NCBI GenBank assembly: GCA_964017185.1
Contig: OZ024878.1
Coordinates: 3,286,151-3,350,150 of the forward strand
Source: Rugalucina vietnamica
Taxonomy: Eukaryota; Mollusca; Bivalvia; Lucinida; Lucinidae
DNA: 64,000 nt
Direction of reading: 5' to 3'
Positions 28,052 through 51,445 of the stretch are shown here, in pieces. The notes beneath the pieces were generated by a model. The model worked only from the letters and a program-made list of their open reading frames with translations. It was not told where the DNA came from and made no database searches. Every line of letters begins with the position of its first letter. Position 1 is the stretch's first letter. The translations under genes were made by a program, and so were the position numbers.

Positions 28052-28690
28052 TACAAGTAGGCAAAGATCAGGAAAAGGCGCAATCAGAAAAAGATTCCCA
28101 CTCCAAAAACCAAGGTGGGAAAAAACCAAACTAACAATCAGGTACTTATACCATGAAACATATCGTAAGCCAAATGAGCAGCTATTTTCCCAATAGGTGG
28201 CCACTCAGTTACCTTAACTTAACTAAAAATATGAAAACATACATAAGGCGCCAACAGCACAAAATTTTTTTAAACACCAAGACATAAAACAAAAAGAACC
28301 ACCACAGAAGTATCGACCTGGAACGATCAGTAACACAAAGTTACTGGCGGGCTTAAACCGGTTTTACAGGTACCTTACCTCACCCTCAGCTTCTGCAGTG
28401 GTTCATAACATTTATTTATTTCTTTGGTCCTCGTGGTGAATCTCGAACTAATCAATGAATCATCAAGAACAAACAAATAAATCATGATAAAATCCTGATA
28501 AATCAAAAACCAGGACTCACAGATTGAGTAAGCTGCCCGACGATGGAGATCCCTGGGCGCCGAATAACCTACTAACTCCGGAGCAAAAGAAAAACAGCAG
28601 TTGGACCCCGGTGGGCCAAGCAACAGACAAGAAGCTCCGGCCCCAACCAACTAAAATGAATAGCTTTAAGTCGGGGCCATCATAGAGTCT
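28052..28690 (-). mobile_element. Penelope-like element 3' tail
   Basis: Nearly the same sequence as 1418-2045: ACAAGTAGGCAAAGATCAGG through CCCCGGTGGGCCAAGCAACA to TCGGGGCCATCATAGAGTCT. It stops before any RT codon, so this copy is severely 5'-truncated. It sits inside the AT-rich inverted array. Confidence 0.85.
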
Positions 28691-30113: not shown

Positions 30114-31346
30114 AGAGTTATCTCCCCAAATAACGATATGACCGTTACACATTCCGGACACGGCAATAAATGTAACAAGAAGGAGGGACGATAATTCTTA
30201 ATTTGAAATAATTGTCAGCACTATGTTGCTTTTTTCTAGCCAAGGTGCAGTGCAAATCATTTTCGTAAGTATACTGTTTAATATTTTCCCGTCTTTTTTC
30301 TTCATTTTGATGTTTCATTAATATTCATGAAACTAAAATCGCATGATCGTATACCTGACTAGTTGTGCAAAAGTTCATTGTCTGAGCATTCATTGGAAAA
30401 CTATTTTCAAAACCCTACGTCTAACAACAACCCAGGTAAATTTTACATGTGTTTTTGTAGGTATAGTCCCTCAATGTTTCCATGATTTATCTCGGATTTT
30501 ACTAACATTCATACATATGCAAATGAGATGATTTTCCTACAGGTCCATGACATAATAGAACCTGTTAAATTGCATTACCGGTGCAATAAAAATTCGCCAC
30601 AATGGTAATTTTGGTCTTAATTGATTTACTTTTTGACTTTAAATGATTTTGAACCGTGCTTTGTTATGACATTTTAACTTATTTTATCAATAATCATGAA
30701 TATGCAAATTAGATAGCTTATTAGATAATTTGAATAACTTAGCATTTTATGAAAGGAGTATGTTTTTTGCTTTAGAATGAGACCAAGTTTAGTGATCTAG
30801 GATAAGTAACAGTGGAGAAATGGACCATTTAGCATTATGTACTCTGTAGAATATTGCATTTTATAAGATTTTATTACAGAGTTATCTCCCCATTTTACAA
30901 TATGACGCTACACTTTCCGGACACTACGACAACCGGCAAATGAAAGAAGAGATTATAAGCTTTAATTTGAGACTAATTTCAACCTTTCCCTACATAGGTG
31001 CATTTTTCGTTCGATTTAAGCGTCGTACAGGATTCATGTACCGCACTAATGTGTGCGTGAGGATGTTTCATACTGTATTAAATTTACTCTGTAATTATGA
31101 AAGAAAATATATACTTAGCACCTTGAATATTTCTATGAAATGTTCTCGCAGGAAAAAGCACAGAAAACGCAAACATGATGCCCCGCAAACAAAATTTTCC
31201 TTCTACTTTCCAAGACCAAAATAAGTATTCTGATTACAGGAAATAACAAGAACCGGACGTTCAGCTATTGGTAGGCATTGGGCCCATGTGCGTCTAGAAG
31301 GGGCTTACAATTTCATAGTCCTTTGTATCGTGAGCATCCCTGCCTT

Positions 31347-32060: not shown

Positions 32061-32373
32061 ATCTTATACCGCTCTTCCATGTTAATCTATCACCAACGAA
32101 GCTCTCACCCAAGATGAGCACATCTCAATAATTCCTTTCAGTAGTACAAGAACACTAAGAGCTAAGCAGAGAAGTATTGACAAAGATTTGGGGGACTTGC
32201 TGGTGGCCGGAGCCGGAGTAAAAGCCTTTGATAGTGTCCTTAATGCAAAGAGAGTTTGAAAATGTAAAAAACGTTGTTAAATTCCTGTCCTGTGTAACTA
32301 TTTGTCCATAGTTATGATTTCTTCAATAGTTTTCAATAGATGTGATTTCCGACAACATTTCATTATTTTCCAG

Positions 32374-32588
32374 CCCCTGTACGTACTTTCTAATGGCGAT
32401 GCTGACGGTGATGTTCGGGCTTCTGGCGGGCGTGGCTCTCTTGGACAGCGCCCTGGGTGCCCCGATTGTTTTTCTGGAGAAAAAGAGTGACACATTTATT
32501 CCGCTACCCAACGGGACCTTTCAGTTTAACAGTATGCTCACAAAGACTATCACCTACGATCCGGAAACGCGAATTATTTATTCAACAG
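32374..32588 (+). CDS. msp130-like exon 1 (signal peptide)
   Basis: Acceptor TTATTTTCCAG (ends 32373), coding from ATG 32393, donor ACAG|GTCGGT, leaves in phase 1. Contains the signal peptide, FLEKKSDTFIPLPNGTF and TITYDPETRIIYSTG. Confidence 0.8.
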
Positions 32589-35500
32589 GTCGGTACTTGT
32601 TAGAACAAGCGTCATTCATACGCATTAGAAACTCTGACACCAACATACCAATAAAACACTCCAGAGCCCCACCAAGACTGACGTGTACATGTATATAGCC
32701 AGGTCATGAAATATTTCATAATCTGACCATATACATAGCAGCTTTTGTGGGGTTCTGGTGCTTTTTGGTCAGAATGTCAAAAGCCTGTGGGTCATCGTCA
32801 CATTCAATTGGCTGATGACTTGTGAAAATAGTGACGTACCGAGTAGATTTGCAGAATTTGTGTACACGTTTTTTATTGCGTGACCCTGCATGATAAGTTT
32901 GAGGCCTATGCTTTGATTTATCGAACATTCTGATCATTAATATGGTGTGAGTCGTTTCGCGTGTTTTGTGCCTTGAATGTTCTTGCTAAAACGATAAACA
33001 TTCCATTTTTTTTTTTAAATAAATATCAGAAATTTAAATCAACTGTCTACCTTCTATGGTTGTGCAGTCTCATTTTGCTTACAGAACCAATGATCACAAT
33101 TCTCACGACACGTCCCATGCACTATTATGACTATTATGTGACATTTTGCATTGACATGTATAATGTCAGAGTGTATGTATTCCTTTCTTTTCAGGGGTTT
33201 TCTGTTAATTTTCTTCACCAATGAAATTAATTGTAATCGTTCATATACACGTAAATTTCATACCTCTATAGCTAACAGGATTGCCATGTGTTAAGAGACG
33301 CCTTACATTTTTTGTGACACAGGACTGTAACGGTCGTTGATGCTCCGTTAAAAGCATCATTCCAGGCATTAATGGGAACTCCAATGCATAACTCTTTCGA
33401 TGTAATCGTGTATCTTAATGCTGCTCTCACATATACCGAATATCCCTTGCGAATCCTAAAATTTGAAATTCGCGCTGAAATTACCGAATATGATGCGAAT
33501 GGACGGGGCGGGGCTTGCACAAAACGATGTCTTTGCGAAAGCGTTAAGAATGCTTGCGGATCCTTACAAATGTCTTAAGAATGTTGCGATTGATTGCCAT
33601 GCTCACTACCGAATTCTTGAAAATGCCGTACGAATGTTCCGAACGCTTACAAATGCCGTTACAAATAATACGAACGTCTTGCAAACACCTTACAAATGAA
33701 GCGAATGTGTAGCGAATGCTTGCCGAATTCTTTTGATTTTTTACTCATTCGCAAACATTGTAGCCAATAATATCAATGTAAAACGAATTCACCCACAATG
33801 CCATTGGGCATGGAAAAAATATGTCATTATTGGTCCAAGTCTACTCTTGAAACACACACCACTTTGTTGTTTCTCTCAAATTGCGATTTACACAATAAAA
33901 AGATAATTTTACTGGGCAAATGAAAAATTCACGGGACTTTAATTAGTCTGTCATGTACATTGATGGATAGCTTAAAGCCAAACACCATAAATAATGGTCT
34001 TTACTTGAAGGATAGGACCAGAATAAATAACCTATGCTAAAAACTGAGTCTTGAATGTGAAAATTTTGCGATTCACTAGCGATTCTTTACGGACATCAAA
34101 ACTCAATAGAATTTAATGCTACAGAATCCTTGCAAATGGCTTGCGAGTGTTACAAATGTCTTGCAATCAATCCGAATTGTTTACGAATTCTTTACGAATA
34201 TGTTAAGAATATGATTTCCTTGCGAATTTTAGGAGCATGTTCCTAATTTTCGCAACGACTCGAAATTTTCACCGAATGCTTCCGAATGCTTACAAATGCT
34301 ACCGAATGCTTCCGAATTTCTAGCGATTAATGCGAATTTGCTCAAAATTGCATTCGGAAGGGCATTCGCAAGGGAAATTCGGTATATGTGAGAGCAGTAT
34401 TAAATGAACACCCTATTGTCTGTTTCAAAGTTTCATTGCGGCAATGACTATTGCAAAATGCCCACAGGATTATATACCGTTACAGCCCTGCGACAAAAAT
34501 CGGTAATACATACGTGAATGTATCCAGAAAATATTCCTTTTCATTACGAAAACTTGCCAATGAAATATACAGATGAGCTGTAAAGAAGAAAATAATTGGA
34601 TATTTTTCTTATTTTTGCTCAAAACATTGATGGTGGATACACGTTAGAACCGCCTTGGCGAGTTTGCCAAATTTGCCAGGATTTCGTGTTGAAGCATGCA
34701 GATTCAGGTAACAAAACACTATCAAATTCGGGCTTGACAAACGCTTCAATGCAAGAAAAATGTTTCACCTCATTTTATTATTATTATTATCATCATCATT
34801 ATTATTTTTATTCAAAGTTTAATAAGGAAATAAGGACAATTCCCATTTCAATTTCATGCTATACAGAACTGTACCTACTTATTGCATAAGTATTTTGAAA
34901 ACCTATAGTTTTCAGATTTAAAGTAAGAAAAGGATGACCAGGAACTGGCATGAAAATATTTAAAATCCCAATCCAGACACCAGCCATGATAGAAATGACA
35001 ACTCCAAACATTGACAACATTCTAACATCACGCAATATGTCTAGCTCTTTCCCAGCGAGGCAGCCATCATGCTATTTGGGTTTCACAAATAGTGTCGGTC
35101 AAATTTTCAGAAGTTTCATACCAAACATATGTTAAATGTACAGATGAAAATTAACACAAAACCGAAAATAAGGGCCACAGGAACTTCAAGTAACTAACAC
35201 ACGAATGAAACACGTAACTAAAAACGATGGTTATACAAAATTGAAAAGAAACCAAAATATTAAATACCACGTGAAAAGAAATAAATACATGTACATGCAA
35301 ATCAAAATAAAATTTGAACAATAAAACCGCAAAACACCGGTTAATTCTTTTCCATGCTTAATGACAGGTAGCTTGATTTTGCGATGAAACGCTGTGGAAT
35401 CCGGAGAAATTTCGCGCGAAATTTCTCGCTGATTTGTACTTTTCTCACAATTTCATCGCGAAATCTGACGATTAGCCATTTAAATATTTCGCCGTGAACA

Positions 35501-38500
35501 CAGCAAAAGTGGCGGTTTAGCCAAAAACTCCACTGTATGTTCACTTGTGTAGAAAGTTCAAATGTTTTGTTTTAAATTAACTCCAGGTCTTACGACGATA
35601 GACGATTTCAAGTTGAACAGAGATCTCACGACCGAGCCTATCTCAGGACCAGTTGATCCAGCAGAGGATATCATATTTGACACGGTACGCCAGTTTATTG
35701 CGTTGATCCAAATGCATTTGTGACAGACAGGCTTGCCTATCATGATCAATGGAGAATAAATCCACTTCCATTTCAGGGGCATCAGAAAAGATTTTGAACA
35801 TAATTTCAATGTTCGTACGATTACCGTTATCGGGACCAGTGAATGTGAAGTACAACACCATTGAAGCAATTGATCAATTTATTCGTCTTCATGGCACACC
35901 AACTGAACCACTCTTTTGCATCAATTCAGACAAGCCTATTATATTTGATGTTCATTCGATTCACTGTTGTACAAAACGTCGCCGCCTCTGCCGGTATAAG
36001 GGCCATAGTTTTAGAATCGGTGCTGCCTCTTTTATATCAGAGCGGAGCAGGGACATAGCGCCTCTCAACACAGAGCCTTGTGTTGATAAAACAGCATGTG
36101 TCCTTTTTACTGTATACACTGTTTATAATCTATAGGCTTATTGTTCGACCTTCGGTTTGTGGCAGATTTTGCCCCATTGCTTGTTCTTATGTTGATTTCT
36201 ACATAATGGATTTCATTCTACTGTGGGATCGCCCTTCATGATAAACTCACGTTTTTTGTCAATATTTTAGTTGCATCTTAAATTAATTCAATTTCCGTTT
36301 GCAAATATGATATAGATTTGAAAAGCGTATCTGAAAATATTTTTTTCTATTTTTTATGTGAAGCCAGTTGTGCTGTGATTTGATGGATTTTTGCACAGTT
36401 TTTCATTTTCAGTATTATGATATTCCCTTATTGTACCTGAATGGGGTGTGGCTTGGTGACAATTGTAAGATTCACTGAACTGAAACTTAAAATGTATATA
36501 CTAGCATCATAAACACATATCGAACTGTTTTACCTGGTCAAATTTTACTGAAATTATGTAACCTATGCAGTGTATGTCATAGCAAAATGTCCGTAAACTT
36601 TATAATACATGTAGATTTTTCCACCATATACTAAATGAAAAAAGAAGTGAACAAACTTCGGTTAGTCTCCAGGAGGAATATTACCAGTTCTTAGAGCAGA
36701 CTTATTTCATTACTAACCGACAAGGGTCCCCGCCCATTGGGGCCTAAAAGAAATATATGGGCTGCCCGTATCTCCAAACAAAGCTTTTTAACTACTAACC
36801 AACCATCTGATTACTGGTTTACACTCAAGTCTGAGCCTGCCCAGGAAAAGTGGTTTTGTCAAACAATCCATACATATAAGCATTAATGGTTTTCTTGCGT
36901 GGTTATATTTATGAAGCACATTTTGTGTGTTATGACATCCTAATGTTGGGTAAAATTCCCATTAAATGGAGGCAACTTCCCCGACATGACCATTGCTGTT
37001 GACTGGGACCCAAATCATTAATTCAAACAAATAAACAAACTCACTGACAAAAATAACAAAGAATAAGTAGGAGATGATAAACTCAGGAATAAATATTTTC
37101 ATGTTACATTATGGAACAAATGTGCCGGACAAGAAGTGTACGAAATTTAAAGATCCACTTGAATTGGATATGTGTTTGCTTGTATCGAGGTTCTAATGTA
37201 CTAGTCAAAAACTTTTCAGGCAAATCAGGATGAACCCACTGTTGCCTAGGTATTGACCAGCATTTTGGGAGTTAATGTGTTTTGCTCAAGGACACAAAAT
37301 GGTGCCCGGAGCAGGAATCGAACACAGGACCTTTCGATTCGGAGTCTCAAATATTTTTGTTATCATTTGGATTTATATATAACTCGCAAATATGTATGTG
37401 TATACACATTTTGTGCACCGGTTCGATTGAGCCACTGCGAACGATTCAGCTGGGGAAGGATGATAAACTTTTGTCTATCTGTAACGATCAGACGCCCTAC
37501 CACTTCAATTAACTCATTTAAGCTTGGCGTCCCTTTTGTGGGACATAGACTAACAGCATAGCCCCATATCTGGGGCTATTCTGTTTGCTTGGAGGAATTT
37601 CATCGAAAAATTAGATAAAACTTAAAAATCACTCCTAACACCCCTAAAAATGAAAGTGGACTCAACCAATTGATAATGTTAGGAAAATCCATTTGTCAAA
37701 TATGGGTTTATATTAAGTGAATGTTTATTCTAAATTTTACTCACTTATATATAGATACATTGTTGAGAAATGAGCCTCCGCATGGGAAAACCAACAATCT
37801 GCATAGGCGAAAACAAAGGCGCAGATCAGCTTCGCAGTAACTACGAAGCTGATCAGCGCCTTTGTTTTCGCTACTCGGATATTTCAATTCCTCTTCTACT
37901 TAAATCCGAAATTTCAAGCTTCTAGCACTTTTCTGTGCTTGTGCAGGTCCGTTTGTGTCGTACCTGTTCGGAAACCACATTGTTGGTTTTCCCACGAGGC
38001 GGCTCAAATAATATAGATACATTGTGGAGAAATAATATTTTTCATGCCATTTCATCCGCAGATAAAGGTATGCAACGGGTTTGTTATAGTAGCAGGAGGG
38101 TTAAGAGGCAGCTTAGATGCTACAGTACAGATCTATAGACAGATAATAAGATGGAATAGAGAGATCACATACGAGTTACGAAATTCTATTCGAGGTAACA
38201 TTAAGAAAGCGTGCTCATATAATACAGATTTTTCGGTTGTAAATTGTTAATAATGATGGTTTAGAACAAAAATAAGAAAACAGTTTTTGTGATCTAAAAC
38301 CTTTTGAAAAAGATCATGTACAGTGAAGCCATTGGTACTGAACAACTTTGGGGCTTTTTCAGGGATGCTACCTACATTCCTCATAATCAGTTGAATACAC
38401 AAAAAAGTATAAAAGGTCCAGAAATTGATACAATTAAACTAATATTCCCATCCCAAGAACAGCAGGCGGGAAAAGAGGGGGCGGGCTGTAATTAATGTTG

Positions 38501-40621
38501 TAAGAACTTGTAGCCAAACCCCATTGCTTAAAATGGCAATAAAATGTGTTTAAACTAAAAGAGCACACGTCATGCGTAGGAGGATTTTCAAGAATAATGA
38601 AGAATTACAAAGTATATTTATAAAATTTATTATAATTTGATTAGCAAAGCTTACACATGTTTTCAGTTGGCAATGGTCCTTTAAGTTTGGTAGTGACGAA
38701 AGATTGTAGCCGTATCCTGGTAACGTCTGCCGGGGCAATGCCCGATAGTGCCCTACGCGAGGGTTACGTGACCATGATCAGTTGGCCATCATCACACTTC
38801 GGCCCGTATTACAGAACAACAGTGATGAACTTCAACGCATTTGAGGACATGTAAGAACATTACGAAAACATGCCCATGCAATAATATAGACAGTTTTTGG
38901 TTGTAAAAATCTAAATATTCATTAGAATTTTTTATATATTTTTCTTATTTTTGCTCAAAACAAAGATTGTGGGTACACCTTTGAACCGCCTCAGCGAGGC
39001 GGTTCTAACGAGTACCCACAATCTATGTTTTGGAGCAAAAATAAGAAAAATATGTATAACCCTGAATACCCTAGTTTTTCTATATGTAAGTGGGGTTTAA
39101 GAGATATATATTGCACGGACATGTTTTCGTGTTGTAAACATAGAATATATACTTTTTGAGGTGAATACTTAATATTTATTTCATCGTGTGTGTTGGTAAT
39201 TTCGATGTTTTGAAGAGATTTTTTTTCTATCCCAGTACTAGTACATTTCAGGTGTCTCAAAATGCCAGTCACTTCTGCATTTAGCTCAAAGAAATATGAG
39301 CCTGTGCATGGGAAAACCAACAATTTGCATAAGCGAAAACAAAGCCGCAGATCAGCTTCGCGGTAACCGCGAAGCTGATCAGCGCCTTTGTTTTCGCTAC
39401 ACGGATAGTACAGTCCCTCTATTTCTTAAATCCAAAATTTCAAGCCTCTAGCTATCTTCTGTGCTTGTACAGCCCGGTTTGTGTCGGACCTGGTCTGAAA
39501 CCCAAATTGTTGGTTTTCTCATGCACAGGCTCATATGCACTTCATGCATTTCATTTTGTTTAAAGAAAGGAAGTGACATGTGAAAGTGCCAACTGTCAGA
39601 GACTTTTAAAAATACCTTTGGAGATGTAAACTGGAAGTGATCTAACCTCCAAATAGCATGCTTATGCGATATGCAGAAAAAAAATAGCATTAAATATTGA
39701 AATTTTCATTGAAAAATAATATATTTTAATATTTTTGCTCAAAACATTGATTGTGGGTACTCGGCGAGGCGGTTCTAACGAGTACCCACAATCTATGTTT
39801 TGTGTACCCCAGTTTTACTATATAAAAGTGGGATTTAATAGAGTATACATTTCACGTTTTCCTGATGACTCATCCCAGCTTCTGGAGTGGATCAAAACAG
39901 TTAGTTAGTTGTTCGGCTGTATCATCAGGTTAAACAACTTAATTATGATAAACGCCATGATGATGCAAAAACGAGGACTCAACATAGCGAAAAACTTCTG
40001 AACTTTGTGTAAATACGCTGTTGTCTAACTGCAAGATTGGCAAGAGTTTTCATTCACTTTCAATTTTTACAGCTCAATAAACCAGAGCTTGTTTGAGCTG
40101 TAAAAATTGAAAATTTTCAGCTGATTTTTTTTTTTATATTTTTATTATTATTGCTCAAAACCTAGATTGTGGGTACACGTTAGAACCGCCTCAGCGAGGC
40201 GGTTCTAACGAGTACCCACAATTTATAATTTGGATCAAATATAAGAAAAAATGCTTACCTCTGTAAATATAAAAGTGTGGTATGAGTGGGTATAGATTTC
40301 ACGCACATGACTGTTATCCTGGTGCGGTTTTTAAATGCCAAACTAAACATAGGCATTTTCAAAATGTGTCATTGCAGAACAAATTACATGAGGCTTTACT
40401 TACTTTGATCAGTGTGTATTGTTTATGTCACGCTGCGTTTATGAAAATATATACCGCTCGTTCTACAGGAATGCGGAGCTTATCAGTCGTGGTTTAATTA
40501 GACTCAACCCCAATACAACCCTCAGCCAAGACTTACAGCCACACGACATCGTCATTGATAAGGCCGAGAGATATGCATATGTCACTCTACTGGTAAGAAA
40601 ATGATGATGATGATGATGATC

Positions 40622-40665
<44 letters not shown>

Positions 40666-40677
40666 ATAAAACTGATA

Positions 40678-40754
<77 letters not shown>

Positions 40755-40757
40755 AAA

Positions 40758-40792
<35 letters not shown>

Positions 40793-40793
40793 C

Positions 40794-40825
<32 letters not shown>

Positions 40826-40907
40826 ATAAAACTGATAATGATGATGATGATGATGATGATGAGATGATGATAATAATGATGATGATGATGATGATGATGA
40901 TGATAAA

Positions 40908-40990
<83 letters not shown>

Positions 40991-41021
40991 ATAAAACTGA
41001 TAATGATGATGATGATGATGA

Positions 41022-41091
<70 letters not shown>

Positions 41092-41576
41092 ATATGGATG
41101 AAATGTGTTCTTGGCACAATGGAACAGTTAGAAGTTTTGAATAGGATTTCCTGTAAACAAATTTCATGGAAGGGAGGTAAATATATTCGAAGTATTGTGT
41201 AATCATCATAGTATCTCTCCTAAGACCAAAACTGCATGATAATAAAAGACAATAAGTGACGTACGAGTTACTAATGGTCATAACTAAAATGTTAAATATA
41301 GCATTGTATGTGACCGGAAGACTGATGTGCCTCTGTCAAGAGCACAGCTGTAATGTTATAGGCTGTATCTGGCTGCTGTTTACATTTTGTTATTTTCTGT
41401 CCGTCTATGATCTGTATTTTGTATTGTGTATTGTAATTATTGTTTATTCTTTGTATATACTGATCAATTTTCTGTTTATATGTTTATAACGAGGGCCTCA
41501 TGGAAGATAAGCTATTGCATGTATTCTCTTCTGTATATGTATATGCTAAATGTAGTTACCCTTTTTAAATAAAGTC

Positions 41577-41609
<33 letters not shown>

Positions 41610-44600
41610 CCAGCGGGCACATGACGTCAGAATGGCGTCATATCAACGTCGATGCGACGTCATGACTTCGCATCGACGTCGATCTGACGTCATTCTGATG
41701 TCATGTGCCTGCTGGGTACTTACTTATAAACTAAAAACAATTCGAAAATATGATCTTGTCAGTGAAAAAGCTATAGCATGTATTTGCATTCTATTGTTAT
41801 AAACATACTGAGTAGGCAAAATTGAGTTTTCAGAGAAAACTAAAAATCGTGCTTTCCTACTAGACTTCAAACAGGCAACTCCATGATATACCCTATATTT
41901 TTCTTCTTTCTCTAGAATAACAACGCTATTGCAGTTGTAGACATGCGACAGAGGATCATATCAGATCTAATTCCCCTCGGCTACAAAGACCACAATATCA
42001 CAGGATCCGGTTTTGATGGGAGCTCTAGGGACGGAGGTAATTACGTAGTGGGAACATGACGTCATGATAACAGTGTGACGTCATAAACATTCTGACATTA
42101 TGACGTCACATCGGTGTTGAAATTGTATTTTTGTGTCACGTGACTGTTTGGTTTCCTTTCGGGTGAGCATGATGTCATAACACCCGGGCATAACAGCGTC
42201 AGATCACCGTCGATATGACGTCCTTGTGTTTTATGACATCATTTAGCCTAACTGCGTGGTCATCTGCTGACCACACTTCCATTGTGGCAAGTCAGTGGAA
42301 TTTAACTAGATGCTCAGTCACGTCCTGCTTTCTATGGGTTGTTTTATAAAGAAAGTTGATGACTTATATTAGGCTTTTAATGGCAATGCACTTGTTGGTT
42401 TCAGTTTTGGTAGCCATATTATAAGGTCCCATTGTTCCATAAATTGTTTTCAGGTGTTCGGATTAGGACATGGCCTGTGGTAGGTCTGTTTGAACCGAAC
42501 GGTATCTGTACAGTGACCATCGACGACAGAACCTACCTGATAACAGGGAACCAGGGAATGAACGCCAAAATGCGAGTAGATCAACTGACACTGGATCCCG
42601 TCATATTCCGTAAGTTTTCCGTGCGGGAATTGTATCTAAACCGACCTCTTTTAGCAAACATTTTATCAGTATATCCGAAGCATCATTTACTGGTCATTTA
42701 GGCTTTGTGACTGGTCATGTAAGCAATGGCTCGTATTTCCCTTGCAAGGTCGGTTTCTTTCTATGTGCCCTTTCATGTGTCCTCCGATTTCCTCCAGAGC
42801 GCGTAACCGCAACACGCATTCATCCGCGCTTTCCACAACGGGATATTAAGTTTCATATTTACTTTTATTATGCATTTTGAGTAAAATAGTGTATGTCTAA
42901 ATTTTAATTTAAACAAAGTCTTCATTCTTCTTTTCTTGTATTATCCTCCAACTGCTGGGTACACTTTGTTCATGATGAGTAAGAGTATTAATTACCACCA
43001 GACAACAATGATACTGACTCTGACCACCACCAACCAAAGCCTTAAAATATTTACTGTATTTCCATCATCATGATCATTGAGTTTATTCCCTCTTCTATAC
43101 CTTTTAAAATGATACTCCCTCTTCTATACCTTAAATGACACAAGGATATATTCTTTAAAGGACTTCTGAACAACGATGTTTGATCCTGATTTTATGTTTT
43201 CCTCTTTTTAGCCAATGCCGAAGAACTTCAAATGAGCGAAAATATAGGTATGTTTTGCTCGTAGATAATACTTACTTAAATGCGCCATGCTTTTGGATAG
43301 ACTACATTTTATATTTAGTATTATGTAAATGATTTGACCATGACCGATGACCTTTTGTAAAGTAGTCACATGATCCATCTACTATCATTTCATTATTACC
43401 TTTTTTGAAACACGCCAATGGAAATATAATCATTTTACTCATTCATATTCGAAAAATCTTAAAAAAGTGCAACGTACATTTTGAAAATGGATAAACAAAT
43501 AAAACTGTAATGCTATAAAATAATTTTGACTAGAACTCTTTTTCGATGATTGTGTTTCCCGATGCTTGTGAAAATTTGAGTAAGCAACGGGACGAAATAG
43601 TCATATCTTCTTAAAGTTCAAAAGAAAAGTTTGAAAGATGGTGTAGGGGCTGTGTCATCGAGTCAAAAACGTCTATAGTGTCTCTTATTGTACTGAAATG
43701 AGAAAACATAATTTTGTATACGCGAACACAAAGGCGCAAATCAGATTCGCAATGCGCTTATGTTTTCGCTACACGGTTCGTGCAATTCCTCTTCTTTCTG
43801 AATCTGAAATTTCGCGTTTCTAGCCATCTTCTGTACATGTGTAGCTAGTTTCAATGCTTCAAATGCATGATACATAAATAGAAATGAATTTCCGATAATT
43901 TTGAAAATAAGATGTACATGTATAGAACATTACAAAAGCATAATACTCAGTAAGCCTTGTATTGCATTTATTGAATATTCATATTCTTACAATTTAATGC
44001 CATTCAAACTATTGTAGGCAAGCTTATGGTTGAGACATTCAACGCAGACAGAGATGGGGATGGAGATATTGACGTAATACAAGCACAGGGTAATGTACAT
44101 ATCGTATAATTACATTTTTAAGAGTATGCTTCGCACATTATAGACCAATATATGTCACCGCCTACTCGGAATCAGTATATTTGATTTCTAAAATATCAAG
44201 ATTTGCCTTTTCTATCTTTGTTATCGCTGGCAGACACATGGTGTCAAACAATCTCAACAAAATCATCATCGTCATCATCATCCTCATCATCATCGTCGTC
44301 GTCGTCGTCGTTAGCAGCAGCAGCAGCAGCATTATAGATATTAACGATATTCATCAGACGTTGAACTGACGTTATTACGTAATGACTCTGGTGGTTGTAC
44401 TTCAGGGGCACGATCTATCTCTCTATGGAGCAGTGATGGGCTGGAGTTGATCGCAGACACTGGGGATGACCTTGAAAGGTAACCATATTGATTCCATACC
44501 TATGCAAAATACAGGTATTTTTTTCAGCTGAAGAAATTGAGTTATCATCTATGACCAAACTATTGAAAACAAAAATTGTGGATTTGAAACAAAAAATGCA

Positions 44601-47600
44601 TTCCTCTGCACATCAATGTTGTACCACGTGACACGATAGTTATGCTATCCTTTTGAAAAACAGGTAATTTAGAATGAACTGAGTGAATGACCAAACTGCC
44701 CACAATTTAAAACAAGAAATTGGGGAGCAATAAGTATGAGAAAATTGTGTATTTCAAACATAGCTGAACTGAAGAGCATAACCACTATTGTATATAACTA
44801 GAACAATAGTTAAATTGGTCTGTGCCCAAAGTTAAATCTATTTTTTTGCTTCAAAATAATGAATATTTAAAGTCACTGAGAAGTCTTTAATTTGAAACAA
44901 TTTTAATGATATCGTGCATTGGAGTGAATGTAAAGACGAACCTTCTATGCTTTCTTAACAGGGGATGCAGGTGTTGGTAAATCGGTATCTATTTGAGCAC
45001 TCGTTTTAATTTAAAAATGTACAAAATCCAGTGGACAAAAAGACTCTGCTGCGTCCTTGCATTAGTTCTGTCGTTTTTAATATCAGTGGTAAAACCATTT
45101 GTTCTGATTTTTCTAGAAAAAAAAATATCAGGGCACAAACCATTTATGAGCATTGTGATTTAGATATTATTTTATCTTCGGAACGTCACTTATATGTAAT
45201 GAAACAATAAAGCAAGTAAACGTATTGTCTATTATTGCTTTATTTTTAAAATTTGCAATGAGTCAGTGCATAAAAAAACCAACAATCTGCATATACGAAA
45301 CCAAAGGCGCAGATCAGCTGTGCAGTAATTGCGAAGCTGATCAGCGCCTTTGTTTTCGCTACACGGATAGTAAAATTCCTCTACTGTCTAAGTCTAAAAT
45401 TCCAAGCCTCTAACCATCTTCTGTGACTGTACAGCCCGGTTTGTTTCAGACCTGGTCGGAATCCAAATTGTTGGTTTTCTTACGCACAGGCTCAACTGTT
45501 TTTGTGTTATCGTTACAATTCGCCTGATGGGTATACTCTGAAATTGTCTTGATTTTTGTTTGTTTGAACTGATGCTTTACGTCCAGGTCAACAGCAATTG
45601 TCATGTCGGGACGTTGCCTCCATTTTATGGGACTTTTTACCCAACATTAGGATGTCATGAAACTCAAAATGTGCTTCATAAATATAACCACCCAAGCAAA
45701 CCAATAAGACTTATATGTATGGATGTACGTAACATTTAAGATTAGCCCGACAGACTATCATCATGTCCGTGTAATAAATAACCCCCTATACCCCACTTTT
45801 ATATAGGAAAACTGGGGTATGCAGGACTACACCTATTCTTCTTATTTTTGCTCCAAAACATAGATTGTGGGTACACGTTAGAACCGCCTAGGCGAAGGTA
45901 CACGTTAGAACCGCCTCGGATAGGCGGTTCTAACGTGTACCCACAATCAATTTTTTAAGCAAAAATAAGAAAAAATAGCAATTTTTTCAGCTGACAATTT
46001 TCAAAGCTCAAAAAAGTCTGCTTATTGCATGGACAAGTTTTCGTAATGATACAGTCAGAACGTGATGATGGGCCCAAACTCATGTATATCAAAAAGTAAA
46101 AAAGTACCCCCTTCCCCTGTCCGGAATATGTACTGGCAACGTTTTGTGCTTTAGAGAAAACCTAGAAAATAAATTTTACACTTGTAATACTGTATAGCAG
46201 GTCTAATACAGTATCTACATGTTATGAATCACTGCAGAAGATAAGGGTGAGGTTAGGGCCCTGTAATACCGGTTGGAGCCCCCAGTAATTTTATATTTCT
46301 GATCGTTCCAAGGCGATACTTCTGTTGTGGTTCTATTTGTTTTATGCTTTGGAGTCCGATTTTGTGCTGTTTGAATCTTATGTACGTTTCATAGTTTTGG
46401 TTAAGTTTTGGGCAACTGAGTGGCCGCCTATTGCGAAATAGCTGCTCGCTCGGCTTACGATATGTTCTCTAAGTACAAGTACCTAATTGGCAGTTCGGTC
46501 TTTCCCACCTCGGATTTTGGAGCTGGAATTTCTTTCTGATTGCGCCTTTTCCTGATCATTGCCTACTTGTACCTCCTTAAACTTGTATATAATTGAGCCG
46601 CCTCATGGGAAAACCAACAATCTGCATAGGCGAAAACAAAGGCGCAGATCAGCTTCGCGGTAACCGCGAAGCTGATCAGCGCCTTTGTTTTCGCTAAATG
46701 GATAGTACAACTCCTCTTCTACTTAAATCCGAAATTTCAAGCTTCTAGCTCTTTTCTGTGCTTGTACCGGCCGGTTTGTGTCGGACCTGTTCGGGAACCA
46801 CATTGTTGGTTTTCCCACGAGGCGGCTCAATTATAATTCAGTTTCTATCCTATTATAGGGCTACTGCCAATTTGAATTTTGCCTGGTTTAACACCAATAA
46901 CAACAGAGGCGACAGACAGATACTTTTCGAGATTGATGCACAGTCCACGAAAAGGGTAAGTTGGATGCGGTATCATTACGAAAACATGCCCATGCAATAT
47001 ATAGAGATTTTTTTCAAAAGCAAAAATTGAAAATTTCATTGGAAAAATTTTGATATTTTTCTTATTTTTGCTCAAAACATAGATTGTGGGTACACGTTAG
47101 ATCCGCCTCGGCGAGGCGGTTCTAACGAGTACACACAATCTATGTTTTGGATCAAAAATAAGAAAAATAGGTATGCCCCTGCAAACCCCAGTTTTTCTAT
47201 ATAAAAGTGGGGTTTATGGGGATATACATTTCACGGACATGTTTTCCTGATGGGCCCATCCCCTTTCTCACTAATATGCTCTCTGCTCTTATTTAAGGGT
47301 CTCAGATTTTTATCTTTATTTGCAATTACTGCAGCCTGTGTTGTGCTATGTGGTGGCCCTAAAATGTATCCCCGTATATAATCCATAGTGCAGATTTTAT
47401 TTTTCTTTTGGTCCTTTGATCTTACCAAAAACTTATTAGTGGCTTAGACTCATTTTCTAACCTACGTTTAAAGTATTTGGCTCAGTTTGGACAATACTAG
47501 TCCATGAATAAAAATATACTGTTAAAATTTGCAAAATTACAATAATTCATTTTGGTCCCCTGAAATCTGCAGTCATTGGTGAGGCTTTGTAGCCGAGACC

Positions 47601-50600
47601 GCGGCATGGTCCAACCCCTTTATCATTACTACGTTCACTGCTCTTAAAGGATCTCTGTTTAAATATATAGTTGCTATTAGTGCAGCTGATGTTGTGCCGT
47701 GTGGCGGTCCTATGGGCAAATTAATTCGTCATAAATGGGTTAAACTTTTTTATGTTCACCATTTTTCAGGGCCCCGAACCAGGCAGTGTTGTATCGATGC
47801 CAATTTGTAGGGATCGGTATGAACTGGTGTTGGTAGCCAATCAACGCCCAGGATCCATCGCAGTTTTCACGCTTAACAGACAGGCCCTTTCTTCCGGATT
47901 TACTGTAAGTTTGCTTTTGGAAAATATATCGTGAAATAAATAAAAAATTCATGTTCGGGAATATCAAATAAAGCAAAAGCAAATTGATAGAATTACATTT
48001 TATTAGCGGATCCAAAAAACAACAATTTTCATTATATCTACAAAAACATCAAAACTGTATTTGAACTATATTACTCGAAAATATCTGATTAAAAATGCAG
48101 CGCAGATAAAGCCCATCAAACCGAAGCTATATTTTAAGCTATACAGTTACGATGTAACCTCTTCGCTGGCTACAAAGGGTCTTACTAGCACGTAATATAT
48201 AACACATGATTGAAATTAACTTATCAAAATGCATAAGAATACATGACCAACGAAAAGCTGCGTTACATTTCAGAAATTAAATATATAGCCAGCCTATTAC
48301 CAAATATGGAAAGCCTCACGTAACTTATTAATTGTTATGAAAATGTCTCATAGCTACAGAATCACTAACACAGCACTTTTTTGTCGTGAAATTAAGTCAT
48401 TTAAGCCTGGCGTCCCTTTTGTGGGACATAGGCAAACAGCATAGCCCCAGATGTGACGCCGCAGAAAGCGGTGTCCCATCTGGGGCTATTCTGTTTGCTT
48501 AGAAAATTTTCATCGAAAAATGGAAAAAAAATTAAAAATCACTCCTAACACTCCTTAAAACGAAAGTGGACTCATCAAAATGATAACGATGGGAGAATCC
48601 ATTCGTCAAATATGGGTTAAGGTGTACATGGGTGTACAATTTACCTTATTTTCGAACCAAAACAAGAAGAAGACGAAGTTTAATAAAATATACTATTGGC
48701 CTAGCATGGCAAACACAATAAATATAAATAGCAAACAGTGTATACAGGAATAATTGTCATGTGCGCAAATACAATATATTACATTCGTTTAATTAAAAGT
48801 CTCAGGATAGCATGTACGTGACTGTTTTTCTACATTACCCACATGTTTTGATAGAAAAATGGCTATGTACATGCGTATATCGGCGTTATTTTGCTTCAAA
48901 ACATAAACTGTGTGGCTGCTCATTGGAACCCCATCAGCAATGTTGTGCTAGCACGAACCCACAATCTATGATTTGAATATTTAAACAACTGAAGACATCA
49001 ATTTTCAATTTTACAATGTACAGCTGTAATAAAACTGTGCATTTTTTTCATGTGCGTAATTCCGTAATACAATTGTATGTTAGCCGCTCCGCCAGAAAAC
49101 AAACAATCTGCATTGGCAAAAACAGAGGCGCAGATCAGCTGTGCAGTAACTGCACAGCTGATCAGCGCCTTTGTTTTTCCTACACAGATAGTACAAGTCC
49201 TTCTCTTCTTAATCTCGAAATTTCAAGCTTCTAGACCGCTTCTATGTCTGAACAACCCCAGGTCGGAAACCCCAGATTGTTGGTTTTCTTATAGGCTCAT
49301 GTTACCCCTGTGATTCCAGTTTCAGAGCATGTGGAGTGATCAACAATTAACGGAAGATGAAATTCTAGACGGGATTACTTGGGATGAAGCTTATGAACAG
49401 AAAAAAATCACGATGATCGACCCGAGACAGATCATGTAGGTACTCATTGAGCCTCACGTGTATAGTTTGGTTTTAACCCTTGGTGGGTCAAAGATCGGAA
49501 ACTACTCACGTAGTTCACGTAAAACCATATTCAGGATGTAACGATTCAAATATTTTTGCTTATGCATAGAGTTATCCCAGCGGGCACATGACGTCAGAAT
49601 GACGTCAGATCAACGTCGATGCGACGTCATGACGTCGCATCGACGTCGATCTGACGTCATTCTGACGTCATGTGCCTGCTGGGATTTTTTGATATGGTAT
49701 AACTCGCTTTTGACCTCAGTCCCTTCAAAAGATCGACGGGTCCATGTAGTAGTACGTGATAGGATAAATCTGTTCCAAATACCTCGAGTTTTCCGGCACA
49801 CTTCGGTTGCACGCACGGTATGCGTTTGTAATTTTATTCTGAATATCATTTCACGTGCTAGTAAGTAGACTCTTCGATCTTTTGACGCGTCTGAGGAGGT
49901 CAAAATTGAGTTATAATGTCTAATTTAATTCAAATTTACCTTTCACGTGCAACTTTATGGACCTTGGTCCGTCTAGGATCAATATCGAACCATGCGTGGC
50001 TGTGGCAGCGCAGAAATTACAAATTAGAATACAGAAACCCGGGACAATAACACATCTTATCACACATAACAAGTAATCCATTTCGCGATGACTAACGTTA
50101 CTAAACATAAACTGTTTGCCTTTGAAGTATTGGTATGGTCAGACAAATTTTGAAAAATATTCTCAAAAGGGATATCATTGGTTTTCTTCATTTTCTTTTC
50201 ATTTCTTTACTAAAACTCATTTGCATCCTCAAACAAAACTAATCTTCTCTACATGACCGATAATTTTAATCAAAACTCGGTTTGTGGCAATTGATATAAA
50301 TAAAGTGGTATAGTTAAAACACTTGACCGGTTTACCTCGCGTGAATAAATTTTATAAAAAATAGAAAATGGGTACCTACTTGCTTTAGACACTTTCCAAG
50401 TTCCATGTGAAGCACATGAGCATGTCTCATTTACCATAATGGAATCTCATTGTTGAAAACATAAACATTTGAAGCAGTCAGATCAGCTAATGCAAATCAA
50501 AGGTACACCGGCATGATCAAAGTAATTTCACTTTATATTATCTACATGAATACATACCTAAAGAACATAAATTCTGTATTTTTCTGTAATTCCTGTCAAA

Positions 50601-51263
50601 TCTCATGGTGGTTGGAAAACCGGAAATGGCGGACTCAGCATGCGCACTTAAAGCCTGCAACCTTTTACTGCATATCGTCATATTGTCCCCTTTCAGAATC
50701 GTTGAAGCTAAAGACAGTCCGAGTGGAAAGCCTTTGTTGATGGCTTCCTCCTATGACTCTGGGACAATTTCCATATTCGAAATAAACGGTAAGCATATTT
50801 AACATATTCGTTCTTATTAGCGCACATATTCCAGTAAGCGCACGCCCAGGACTTCGGTATTTGACACAAGTTTTGCCACCGCTTTATCTTAACATTAGAG
50901 CTATTTTTCAATGAAATATCCCAAAACTGCAGCGGAGATTCCCCGCATTTGATAGAAAGTTACTTCTCAGATATCGACCGTTCGAGCTGCATCCAAAAAA
51001 TGGTAACTTGACGGCTATTAACCATTTGGAAACGTTGGTCTTAAAGCACAAAATAGCTGTTATATTTCTTTATTATTCACCACTCTCTTCAGTCGCTTTA
51101 ACATCCCTCAGTTTTGTAAGAAAATATGACACAACAGTGTGAGAAAAAGGTGAAAAGCAAAAAAGATAATTAAACCAGGCCGTATCAAATGATCACTACT
51201 TAAATATGTACGTTCTTTCTCTTTACAGTGAACTGTAACGGGTTAGTAAGGTCCTGGGGTTGA
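32374..51263 (+). CDS. MSP130-like secreted protein, complete 15-exon gene
   Basis: Fifteen exons with GT-AG borders and fully agreeing phases give 553 codons. Start ATG at 32393, chosen because a hydrophobic signal peptide (residues 1 to about 23, ending ALGA) follows and an acceptor lies just upstream, so a 5'-UTR intron is likely. Exons 6-10 show the choice-of-anchor-I signature: NNNAIAVVDMRQR, IPLGYKDHN, RTWPVVGLFEPNG, YLITGNQGMNA, then DRDGDGDID (about residues 360-368, probable Ca2+ site) and ARSISLWSSDG. MSP130 proteins are mesenchyme cell-surface glycoproteins tied to skeleton and shell formation; the family is thought to have entered animals from bacteria. N-glycosylation sequons occur (NGT, NTT, NIT). 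The C-terminus (NCNGLVRSWG) has no hydrophobic GPI tail, so this copy is probably secreted. Introns carry many MITEs. Confidence 0.85.
33309..34500. mobile_element. hAT-like outer MITE split by a piggyBac-like MITE
   Basis: CAGGACTGTAACGGT (about 33323) is inverted at ACCGTTACAGCCCTG (about 34473-34488). CAGGG-type ends are usual for hAT elements, but I do not see a clean 8-bp duplication. The 33415-34403 element lies inside it. Confidence 0.45.
33415..34403. mobile_element. piggyBac-like non-autonomous element, 981 bp
   Basis: TTAA at 33415-33418 and 34400-34403 flank inverted ends TGCTCTCACATATACCGAA and its inverse, with inward similarity to CCCTTGCGAAT. The interior is packed with GAATG-type words (TTGCGAAT, CCGAATGCTT, ACAAATGCT). 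ORFs across it are products of that repetition. Confidence 0.8.
34542..34662 (+). repeat. Hairpin MITE copy 6, cut at the palindrome centre
   Basis: CATTACGAAAACTTGCC and the left arm (CACGTTAGAACCGCCTTGGCGAG) are present, then sequence unrelated to the family begins. Truncation is at the exact axis of the hairpin. Confidence 0.8.
35587..35684 (+). CDS. msp130-like exon 2
   Basis: Acceptor TTAACTCCAG, donor ACG|GTACGC, phase 1 to 0. Encodes LTTIDDFKLNRDL and DPAEDIIFDT. A tyrosine-recombinase relic begins about 65 bp downstream. Confidence 0.75.
35750..36060 (+). pseudogene. Tyrosine-recombinase relic (DIRS/Crypton-like)
   Basis: A + frame of about 100 codons includes YNTIEAIDQFIRLHG and then YKGHSFRIGAASF, the H-x-x-R block of tyrosine recombinases encoded by DIRS/Crypton-type elements. 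The catalytic Tyr region downstream is not recognisable and the frame ends at 36133. It lies in intron 2 of the msp130-like gene, close to exon 2, and is not part of it. Confidence 0.6.
36650..37030 (+). repeat. Dispersed repeat, shared with 31.96, 45.6 and 52.4 kb
   Basis: GAAAAGTGGTTTTGTCAA-type sequence, CCATACATATAAGC, GACATCCTAATGTTGGGTAA and CATGACCATTGCTGTTGAC recur in parts at the other sites. Confidence 0.6.
37210..37512 (-). repeat. tRNA-derived SINE with an insertion between its boxes
   Basis: On the minus strand an A-box-like AGTGGTAGGGCGTCTGATCG lies near 37510-37485 and the B-box TGTTCGATTCC near 37325-37313. CCTTGAGCAAAACACATTAA follows, as in the 3.0-kb SINE. The box spacing (about 170 bp) is far too large, so about 130 bp was inserted. 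Confidence 0.6.
37513..37712 (+). repeat. GGCGTCCC/GGGAC MITE copy 2
   Basis: GGCGTCCCTTTTGTGGGACA, TGGGGCTATTCTGTTTGCTT and ATTTGTCAAATATGGGTTT. About 30 bp of the core seen in the 48.4-kb copy is missing. Confidence 0.8.
37768..38007 (+). repeat. GAGCC MITE copy 7
   Basis: GAGCCTCCGCATGGGAAAAC to TTTTCCCACGAGGCGGCTC. The central hairpin GGCGCAGATCAGCTTCGCAG / CTACGAAGCTGATCAGCGCC is nearly intact. Confidence 0.9.
38062..38194 (+). CDS. msp130-like exon 3
   Basis: Acceptor TTCATCCGCAG, donor CGAG|GTAACA, phase 0 to 1. Encodes IKVCNGFVIVAGGLRGSLD and a basic stretch to ELRNSIR. Confidence 0.8.
38667..38850 (+). CDS. msp130-like exon 4
   Basis: Acceptor ACATGTTTTCAG, donor ACAT|GTAAGA, phase 1 to 2. 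Encodes GNGPLSLVVTKDCSRILVTS and EGYVTMISWP. A hairpin MITE starts 8 bp into the following intron. Confidence 0.85.
38858..39134 (+). repeat. Hairpin MITE copy 7
   Basis: CATTACGAAAACATGCCCATG to CACGGACATGTTTTCGTG. Palindrome 38966-39022 (CCTCAGCGAGG axis). Sits 8 bp from the exon 4 donor. Confidence 0.9.
39297..39532 (+). repeat. GAGCC MITE copy 8
   Basis: TGAGCCTGTGCATGGGAAAA to TTTTCTCATGCACAGGCTCA. Its ends are perfectly matched (GAGCCTGTGCATG / CATGCACAGGCTC), so it forms a subfamily distinct from the GAGCCGCC copies. Confidence 0.9.
39670..39868 (+). repeat. Hairpin MITE copy 8, left arm deleted
   Basis: GATTGTGGGTAC joins directly to TCGGCGAGGCGGTTC, so most of the left arm is gone. 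TACTATATAAAAGTGGG is intact, and the right end CACGTTTTCCTGATG lacks GGACATG. Confidence 0.8.
40085..40323 (+). repeat. Hairpin MITE copy 9
   Basis: The palindrome at 40165-40220 (CCTCAGCGAGG axis). The TATA tract is eroded (AAATATAAAAGTG) and the right end is CACGCACATGACTG. An inner inverted pair (TTTTTACAGCTCAA / TTGAGCTGTAAAAA) lies at the left. Confidence 0.8.
40469..40592 (+). CDS. msp130-like exon 5
   Basis: Acceptor CGTTCTACAG, donor CTG|GTAAGA, phase 2 to 0. Encodes NAELISRGLIRLNP to KAERYAYVTLL. The (GAT)n tract begins within 10 bp of the donor. Confidence 0.85.
40602..41092. repeat. (GAT)n microsatellite, about 490 bp
   Basis: Nearly pure GAT repeats in intron 5. ATATAAAACTGATAATGATG interrupts them at 40665, 40824 and 40988, and AGATGATGA variants also occur, so blocks were duplicated. 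ORFs reading poly-His, poly-Ile or poly-Ser here are artefacts. Confidence 0.95.
41270..41608 (+). repeat. Possible LINE 3' end
   Basis: GAGGGCCTCATGGAAGATAA, then AATAAAGTCTTTACTTACTTACTTAC: a 3'-terminal short tandem repeat after AATAAA, usual for CR1/RTE-type LINE tails. No coding part. Confidence 0.45.
41609..41716. repeat. 108-bp TGACGTCA palindrome, copy 1
   Basis: CCAGCGGGCACATGACGTCA to TGATGTCATGTGCCTGCTGG, palindromic throughout with few mismatches. Flanked by ACTTAC on both sides. In intron 5 of the msp130-like gene. Confidence 0.9.
41916..42036 (+). CDS. msp130-like exon 6
   Basis: Acceptor TTCTTTCTCTAG, donor GGAG|GTAATT, phase 0 to 1. Encodes NNNAIAVVDMRQR and LIPLGYKDHNITG, the most diagnostic family block. 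Confidence 0.9.
42050..42232. repeat. Degraded TGACGTCA-rich element
   Basis: Three exact TGACGTCA sites (about 42059, 42077, 42102) and related CGTCGATATGACGTCC. Looks like an old relative of the 108-bp palindrome, in intron 6. Confidence 0.5.
42454..42609 (+). CDS. msp130-like exon 7
   Basis: Acceptor ATTGTTTTCAG, donor TTCC|GTAAGT, phase 1 to 1. Encodes RIRTWPVVGLFEPNG and YLITGNQGMNAKM. Confidence 0.9.
43212..43247 (+). CDS. msp130-like exon 8 (36 nt)
   Basis: A 36-nt microexon: acceptor CCTCTTTTTAG, donor ATAG|GTATGT, phase 1 to 1. Encodes NAEELQMSENI. Needed to keep the frame between exons 7 and 9. Confidence 0.75.
43715..43850 (+). repeat. GAGCC MITE copy 9, partial
   Basis: CGCGAACACAAAGGCGCAAA, TTCGCAATGCGCTTATGTTTTCGCTACACGG and AAATTTCGCGTTTCTAGCCA match the interior; both ends are lost. 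Confidence 0.65.
44018..44089 (+). CDS. msp130-like exon 9 (Ca2+-site type loop)
   Basis: Acceptor CTATTGTAG, donor CAGG|GTAATG, phase 1 to 1. Encodes KLMVETFNADRDGDGDID, an Asp/Gly loop of the calcium-binding kind. Confidence 0.85.
44255..44332. repeat. Compound trinucleotide repeat
   Basis: (ATC)n, then (GTC)n at 44295-44310, then (AGC)n at 44312-44328. Confidence 0.9.
44406..44478 (+). CDS. msp130-like exon 10
   Basis: Acceptor TTGTACTTCAG, donor AAAG|GTAACC, phase 1 to 2. Encodes ARSISLWSSDGLELIADTG. Confidence 0.9.
45258..45494 (+). repeat. GAGCC MITE copy 10
   Basis: TGAGTCAGTGCATAAAAAAACC to TTTTCTTACGCACAGGCTC, with the hairpin GGCGCAGATCAGCTG...GATCAGCGCC. Confidence 0.8.
45759..46048 (-). 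repeat. Hairpin MITE copy 10, with a third arm
   Basis: CATCATGTCCGTG to CATGGACAAGTTTTCGTAATG. GTACACGTTAGAACCGCC occurs twice (45870, 45898) before the single opposite arm (GGCGGTTCTAACGTGTACCC), so one arm was duplicated. Confidence 0.85.
46175..46575 (+). mobile_element. Penelope-like element 3' tail, old copy
   Basis: GAATCACTGCAGAAG-x-TAAGGGTGAGG to CCTTTTCCTGATCATTGCC and TACTTGTACC. This is the inverse of the 1.4-2.0 kb tail with many substitutions. Confidence 0.7.
46590..46828 (+). repeat. GAGCC MITE copy 11, best preserved
   Basis: TGAGCCGCCTCATGGGAAAA to TTTTCCCACGAGGCGGCTCA. The central hairpin GGCGCAGATCAGCTTCGCGG / CCGCGAAGCTGATCAGCGCC is near perfect. CCTTTGTTTTCGC at the right pairs with GCGAAAACAAAGG at the left. 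Confidence 0.95.
46859..46955 (+). CDS. msp130-like exon 11
   Basis: Acceptor ATCCTATTATAG, donor AAGG|GTAAGT, phase 2 to 0. Encodes ATANLNFAWFNTNNNRGDR. It is squeezed between a GAGCC MITE (ends 46828) and a hairpin MITE (starts 46974). Confidence 0.85.
46974..47252 (+). repeat. Hairpin MITE copy 11, complete
   Basis: CATTACGAAAACATGCCCATG to CACGGACATGTTTTCCTGATG, 279 bp. Palindrome 47079-47142; TTCTATATAAAAGTGGGG. Same size as copy 2. Confidence 0.95.
47250..47760. repeat. Dispersed repeat shared with 11.57-11.93 kb
   Basis: GGCCCATCCCCTTTCTCA, GTGGTGGCCCTAAAATGTAT and CATAGTGCAGATTTTATTTT, with a second partial unit at 47590-47710 (GTGTGGCGGTCC). Confidence 0.6.
47770..47904 (+). CDS. 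msp130-like exon 12
   Basis: Acceptor CCATTTTTCAG, donor TACT|GTAAGT, phase 0 to 0. Encodes GPEPGSVVSMPICRDRYEL and GSIAVFTLNR. Confidence 0.85.
48403..48622 (+). repeat. GGCGTCCC/GGGAC MITE copy 3
   Basis: GGCGTCCCTTTTGTGGGACA. A core hairpin ATAGCCCCAGATGTGACG / GTGTCCCATCTGGGGCTAT and ATTCGTCAAATATGGGTTA. The best-preserved core of the family. Confidence 0.85.
48890..48980 (+). repeat. Very degraded hairpin MITE relic
   Basis: TTGCTTCAAAACATAAACTGTG...GAACCCCATCAGC...ACCCACAATCTATGATTTG aligns with the family centre, but the palindrome is destroyed. Confidence 0.45.
49082..49309 (+). repeat. GAGCC MITE copy 12
   Basis: GCCGCTCCGCCAGAAAACAAAC to TTGGTTTTCTTATAGGCTCA. The hairpin GGCGCAGATCAGCTGTGCAG / CTGCACAGCTGATCAGCGCC is perfect. 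It ends 16 bp before exon 13's acceptor. Confidence 0.85.
49326..49435 (+). CDS. msp130-like exon 13
   Basis: Acceptor TCCAGTTTCAG, donor TCAT|GTAGGT, phase 0 to 2. Encodes SMWSDQQLTEDEIL and EAYEQKKITMIDPRQ. Confidence 0.8.
49576..49683. repeat. 108-bp TGACGTCA palindrome, copy 2
   Basis: CCCAGCGGGCACATGACGTC through the axis GATGCGACGTCATGACGTCG to TGACGTCATGTGCCTGCTGG. Almost perfect palindrome with four exact TGACGTCA sites, in intron 13 of the msp130-like gene. Confidence 0.95.
49690..50690. other. Intron 13, remainder
   Basis: An inverted pair flanks 49730-49890: CCCTTCAAAAGATCGACGGG and CTTCGATCTTTTGACGCGTC, probably an older foldback around the CRE palindrome. Otherwise no feature. 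Confidence 0.4.
50697..50788 (+). CDS. msp130-like exon 14
   Basis: Acceptor GTCCCCTTTCAG, donor AACG|GTAAGC, phase 2 to 1. Encodes VEAKDSPSGKPLLMASSY and DSGTISIFEING. Confidence 0.85.
51229..51263 (+). CDS. msp130-like terminal exon
   Basis: Acceptor CTTTCTCTTTACAG, in-phase VNCNGLVRSWG then TGA at 51261-51263. Confidence 0.75.
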
Positions 51264-51439: not shown

Positions 51440-51445
51440 AATAAA
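51440..51445 (+). terminator. Candidate poly(A) signal of the msp130-like gene
   Basis: AATAAA 177 nt after the stop codon; another AATAAA lies near 51704. Either could be used. Confidence 0.4.

Follow-up and report, generated by a model that had tools for sequence, protein, structure and literature searches.

Most conserved acidic positions are lost in a divergent msp130 gene of the bivalve Rugalucina vietnamica and in its intronless putative retrogene

Some members of the choice-of-anchor I family are atypical alkaline phosphatases, and MSP130 belongs to this same family. One paper (PMC2909932) describes a sea urchin entry that closely resembles an MSP130-related protein and bears the name alkaline phosphatase-like, although its similarity to such enzymes is only limited. 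A 2018 paper (PMC6368272) describes what msp130 does as unclear. Among the literature matches listed, which were compared by title and abstract opening, no title brings msp130 together with a retrogene, with a pseudoenzyme or with a structure. At least one paper among those matches contains both "msp130" and "propeller", taken here as a co-occurrence of words, and parts of the present findings may already be in print.

In this study, we examine a stretch of 64,000 nucleotides from the lucinid Rugalucina vietnamica (GCA_964017185.1, contig OZ024878.1, positions 3,286,151 to 3,350,150), hereafter the window, in which there appears to be a complete gene belonging to a divergent branch of msp130 (choice-of-anchor I). 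The main interest of the locus appears to lie in two features missed by the original prediction for this DNA: a second copy on another contig, intact and without introns, and a seemingly selective loss of acidic residues in both copies.

The choice-of-anchor I model was searched against the whole genome, which comprises 47 contigs and 1.09 Gb, and gave an uninterrupted match on contig C8, a separate contig of 63.7 Mb, and broken matches on contig C9. The C8 match sits in an open frame of 598 codons; the protein read from its ATG is intact, has 558 residues and is encoded without introns. When this protein was compared with the window, 15 exon-sized matches were obtained, in order and on the plus strand. 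For each of the 14 gaps between them, candidate donors (GT or GC) and acceptors (AG) close to the ends of the matches were considered wherever the frame stayed open, and the joined protein was scored against the C8 protein. GT-AG joins scored highest at each of the 14 junctions, with consistent phases. The gene so modelled under the guidance of the C8 protein has 15 coding exons between 32393 and 51263 on the plus strand, separated by 14 GT-AG introns. Agreement with the C8 protein is partly circular, because that protein guided both the finding of exons and the ranking of joins; it is only partly so, since seamless GT-AG borders at 14 of 14 junctions were not built in by the guide and the counts of the original prediction were made without it. 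That prediction had given the same number of exons, 553 codons, a microexon of 36 nt and an end at 51263, all of which were reproduced, as were its GT-AG borders at every exon and its 14 agreeing junction phases. The spliced frame comprises 1668 bases, or 555 codons plus TGA. The figure of 553 codons fits a count from the second, in-frame ATG at 32399, whereas the first ATG gives 555, and the C8 copy also has an ATG that matches this first start site.

Coding exon 1 (32393-32588) contains the start codon, encodes a hydrophobic, signal-like N-terminus and ends in phase 1. Exons 4 (38667-38850), 10 (44406-44478), 11 (46859-46955) and 14 (50697-50788) were placed by the C8-guided match and splice joins, and exons 4 and 11 also enter the intron comparison with the C9 genes given below. 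The sequence blocks named in the original prediction, NNNAIAVVD, PLGYKDH and DRDGDGDID, were located at 41916 and 41973, both within exon 6 (41916-42036), and at 44047, within exon 9 (44018-44089). Exon 15 (51229-51263) ends in the TGA stop and encodes no hydrophobic tail, and the first AATAAA past the stop (51440-51445, plus strand) is a candidate poly(A) signal by pattern match alone. Intron 5 also holds a 490-base ATG trinucleotide repeat, at 40601-41090.

Upstream of the start codon, window positions 31190-31326 (plus strand, edges approximate) are similar to the C8 stretch just before the C8 ATG and align to it up to 18 bases before that ATG. The local alignment score is 86, against at most 53 for 31 other window stretches compared with the same C8 sequence, and the block also has an E of 1.9e-12 in the DNA comparison of the window with the C8 copy. 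This block is a probable 5' non-coding exon, and 32374-32392 (plus strand), which lies about 1 kb further on and directly after an AG acceptor at 32372-32373, is probably the remainder of the 5' UTR. The latter segment places 19 bases before the ATG of the window gene, compared to 18 in the C8 copy. Joining the block at 31317 lifts the score from 86 to 89 only, which leaves the donor position ambiguous, and an upstream non-coding exon spliced to 32374 is plausible. The start at 32374 that had been proposed is the first base after the AG, and is backed by both the C8-like block and the spacing of 19 versus 18 bases.

The N-terminus, for which a signal peptide had been proposed, is hydrophobic and signal-like by hydropathy, with a mean of 1.85 over residues 1-22 and a best 12-mer of 2.59. 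At the other end, the last 25 residues have a mean hydropathy of 0.04 and the best 12-mer in the last 30 reaches 1.01; the lipid (GPI-type) anchor of sea urchin MSP130 is not seen in the window protein. The original prediction was correct that a GPI-type hydrophobic C-terminus is absent, but not in treating this as special to the copy, as the C9 models also have no clear hydrophobic C-terminal tail (1.68 and 1.71).

The window and C8 proteins are identical at 453 of 555 aligned residues. The alignment has a single gap, an indel of three codons within exon 3 (38062-38194), and none at the 14 junctions. Colinear DNA similarity between the two loci covers the exons, about 70 bases past the stop and the 5' block that lies approximately 1 kb further upstream in the window, while most of the remaining matches are dispersed repeats. 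This restriction to the parts of a spliced mRNA is what would be expected had the C8 copy arisen from one, and the copy acts as a natural cDNA that supports both the 15-exon model and the upstream non-coding exon. Over 555 codons the pair has a dS of 0.62, a dN of 0.10 and a dN/dS of 0.17 (0.13-0.23 in 500 bootstraps). With no introns, an intact frame, a location on another contig and the signature of purifying selection, the C8 copy has the features of a functional retrogene, and a retrogene of the window-gene lineage under purifying selection would be the simplest account of it. Within 700 bases past the C8 stop, eight or more A occur in a row once only, as ten A at L006:5730 in the C8 locus; this run lies inside a dispersed repeat, so that no poly(A) relic is shown. 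It may be argued that the copy is a processed pseudogene that stays open by chance and is uninformative on function, but its 558 open codons persist at the above dS and dN/dS, and free decay of one copy should move the pairwise ratio toward 0.5 or more. We consider that explanation very improbable and, on the ratio of 0.17, reject a decayed pseudogene.

The C8 copy has short repeats on either side (L006 3233-3577 and 5653-5935), many of them with matches on both strands, and such repeats also lie in introns 1, 4, 10 and 11 of the window gene, near 34.6, 38.9, 40.1, 45.9 and 47.0 kb. Elsewhere in the window, an open frame at 16496-16990 (minus strand) has a hydrophobic start and Gly/Tyr/Ser-rich repeats (GKGYYPSYPSY), with an acceptor-like site before its ATG, GTATGT after it and no Pfam hit; to us it is reminiscent of shell-matrix or silk proteins. 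Rfam SECIS_1 matches at 1994-2061 and 28624-28691 (both minus strand; 37.4 and 39.0 bits) fall in copies of a single repeat that share 98% identity across 166 bases and stand where an open frame ends; this frame has no Pfam hit and looks to us like a Penelope-type element. A reverse transcriptase frame (Pfam RVT_1, E 1.7e-36) is found at 21544-22281 (minus strand), and tandem arrays at 5957-7222 (units of about 450 bases) and 12378-13138 (units of about 147 bases). A tRNA scan found none.

Contig C9 carries two tandem msp130 genes, C9A and C9B, which are about 35% identical to the window protein and were modelled from their matches with one another and with the window gene, from splice signals and from open frames. 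The C9B model has 10 exons and the C9A model 9, the first C9A exon not having been found; the C9 stretch includes 5000 N. One C9A donor is GC, with GT at the same place in C9B. An extra first-exon-like match is present between the two genes, at C9:48546161-48546295 (minus strand), with 71% over C9B residues 1-45.

All nine C9B introns have a counterpart in the window gene, eight of them at an identical column and phase of the common alignment; the ninth, which borders the microexon on its 5' side, agrees in phase, and its offset is ambiguous owing to gap placement. Relative to C9B, five introns are private to the window gene, including the one that follows exon 2 (35587-35684) after codon 98 in phase 0, which is missing from the C9 models. 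The microexon itself, exon 8 (43212-43247), measures 36 nt in the window gene against 48 nt in each of the C9 models, and is in phase 1 on both sides in all three. An exon common to the window and C9 genes is older than their split. The microexon had been called unusual, a description that these homologous exons contradict, and in view of the 48-nt counterparts in C9A and C9B we reject it as a peculiarity of the window gene. Since nine introns match, the shared positions and phases indicate that the window and C9 genes descend from one intron-bearing ancestor.

To place these proteins in their family, profile scans took in the window protein, the C8 copy and C9B. The absence of a choice-of-anchor I hit had been named beforehand as a refuting outcome, and a clear hit was found: on Pfam PF22494 (choice_anch_I, cut-off 32 bits) the window protein scored 154.6 bits (E 5.2e-45, with its best stretch at residues 193-451), and the C8 copy and C9B reached 140.7 and 219.9. 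The original family call was thus broadly right. The stricter NCBIfam model NF038117, with a cut-off of 300 bits, shows homology over window-protein residues 53-531 and gave scores below the cut-off for the window protein (226.6) and the C8 copy (221.5), whereas C9B passes at 370.2, as do two bacterial proteins, at 614.2 and 610.8. The window branch is a choice-of-anchor I homologue that falls short of the stricter NCBIfam definition, which C9B meets.

A scan of bacterial and archaeal genomes identified 268 relatives. The best 80 of the 268 by similarity to C9A were kept, which makes the sample a biased one, and 79 bacterial rows were analysed after one was dropped for its short aligned span. 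Identity to the bacterial relatives is 29-35% in the 12 best fetched loci and 23-35% among 15 listed plasmid records. Six peptide patterns compared against viral contigs found no relative there. The four animal proteins fall together on one side of a branch, with support of 98 in a quick tree of 83 rows, where long branches meet, and of 99/99 in a careful tree of 36 rows, where the bootstrap had not settled; neither tree has an outgroup. The window branch is long, at 2.3 to 2.6 changes per column. When either animal pair was removed (quick method, 34 rows each), the remaining pair joined the bacteria at supports of 46 to 86 and at differing places. Because these joining places are weak and differ, and an outgroup is lacking, no bacterial donor can be named and nesting cannot be judged; the choice-of-anchor I family is common in bacteria, from which the animal genes may originate.

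The same evidence bears on whether the window-type and C9-type genes might represent two separate transfers from bacteria. The two types are about 35% identical and each sits on a long branch, and according to PMC4237138, Ettensohn 2014 proposed that transfers took place independently into several animal lineages. Nine introns that match in site and phase, together with the 99/99 grouping of the four animal proteins, nevertheless argue against two bacterial transfers, a history that we reject as extremely improbable.

What appears to be new here is that most acidic residues kept by bacterial relatives and by the C9 proteins are lost from both the window protein and the C8 copy. The acidic set, defined here and not a published criterion, takes in the 16 columns where 95% or more of the 79 bacterial rows carry a conserved Asp or Glu. 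The window protein keeps 3 of the 16 and the C8 copy likewise 3, in contrast to 14 of 16 in both C9A and C9B, which themselves lack two. Other columns conserved at the same level are kept at 32 of 44 in the window protein and 33 of 44 in the C8 copy. The contrast between acidic and other columns gives a Fisher p of 2.7e-4 from a test chosen after the pattern had been seen and on columns that depend on one another. The window protein shows a weaker contrast at the 90% level, with 5 of 19 acidic versus 40 of 62 other columns kept (p 0.007). The changes include ones in well-aligned motifs: EPE to QPH in exon 5 (40469-40592), QENN to LNNN across the junction of exons 5 and 6, PDAI to PNGI and NEGD to NQGM in exon 7 (42454-42609), and ER to QR in exon 12 (47770-47904). 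A conserved PE is also replaced by PR in exon 13 (49320-49435). Among the 13 lost columns, the window protein and the C8 copy agree at nine, one being a shared gap and one a change found also in the C9 proteins, and differ at four. Agreement at 9 of 13 implies that most losses are probably older than the retroposition, and the four differing columns would be behaving as expected of released sites.

The genome holds further variation at these positions. A C9B query over the genome returned a more distant msp130-like pair at C8:35714208-35714396 and C8:35744332-35744520. In the 10 kb around the member at C8:35.71 Mb, partial exons keep QEN and EPE and read DEGH for NEGD, so that some conserved acids of this paralogue are kept and others changed. 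At least six msp130 members or partial members are present in the genome.

The acidic changes could in principle reflect fast general divergence in an ordinary msp130 gene, which would encode a secreted biomineralisation protein with the usual, though unclear, activity of the family. Such a reading accommodates a Pfam domain far over its cut-off, the introns in common with the C9 models, the length of the whole window branch and the weaker acidic contrast at the 90% level. We regard it as unlikely, as acidic columns seem to have been lost selectively (3 of 16 kept, compared with 32 of 44 among the other conserved columns) and the score of the window protein lies under the NCBIfam cut-off cleared by C9B.

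A profile built from 54 bacterial sequences matched the surface-layer protein 1l0q, which we take to be a beta-propeller, in the PDB with an E of 7.4e-14, besides five weaker matches; a PDB search with a single sequence gave nothing convincing. The conserved acids of the family may form a metal centre or catalyse. The account that we consider reasonably probable is that the window carries a complete msp130 gene of a divergent branch, with a C8 retrogene under purifying selection, and that the product is a secreted, propeller-like protein whose conserved carboxylates have been lost and whose role is one of non-catalytic binding or matrix. The window-branch protein would be secreted and fold as a beta-propeller-like domain, and its conserved carboxylates would have been lost mostly before retroposition. 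A spliced mRNA of the window gene, or of its direct ancestor, would then have been reverse transcribed and inserted on C8, where it would have gone on coding under purifying selection. The branch would thereby keep its scaffold, would probably no longer hold the ancestral metal centre or chemistry, and may work outside the cell alongside the C9 proteins, in a binding or matrix role that is non-catalytic. A more specific proposal, which we offer tentatively and with some doubt, is that of a pseudoenzyme branch: the family would have split into an acid-keeping C9 form and a secreted, acid-less branch with a kept fold, later doubled by retroposition, which would serve as a non-catalytic matrix or decoy propeller beside an enzyme-like form in the shell or extracellular matrix.

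The coexistence in one genome of two msp130 forms, with and without the conserved acids, makes the role of these acids, and the need for them in mineral, testable. The C8 gene, being free of introns, can be cloned directly from genomic DNA. The shared introns provide a clean argument for a single ancestor of divergent msp130 types within one animal.

When compared to described systems, the C8 copy resembles functional retrogenes in its lack of introns, intact frame, position on another contig and purifying selection, and differs in having no demonstrated poly(A) relic or target-site duplication. With MSP130 and MSP130-related proteins of sea urchins, molluscs and brachiopods, the window protein has in common the choice-of-anchor I domain and, by hydropathy, a secreted-type N-terminus. 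It lacks a hydrophobic tail, whereas urchin MSP130 is reported to be lipid-anchored in a passage of PMC2909932. It also differs from animal MSP130 in that most of its bacterially conserved acids are replaced, in a comparison made with bacterial rows and the C9 proteins. Bacterial choice-of-anchor I proteins (NF038117, PF22494) are homologous to the window protein over residues 53-531, yet two of them score more than 600 bits on NF038117 against 226.6 for the window protein with its lost acidic columns. The C9A and C9B genes differ from the window gene in their roughly 35% identity, in the 14 of 16 conserved acids that their proteins keep and in the NCBIfam cut-off passed by C9B, but are joined to it by all nine C9B introns and by a microexon with the same phases.
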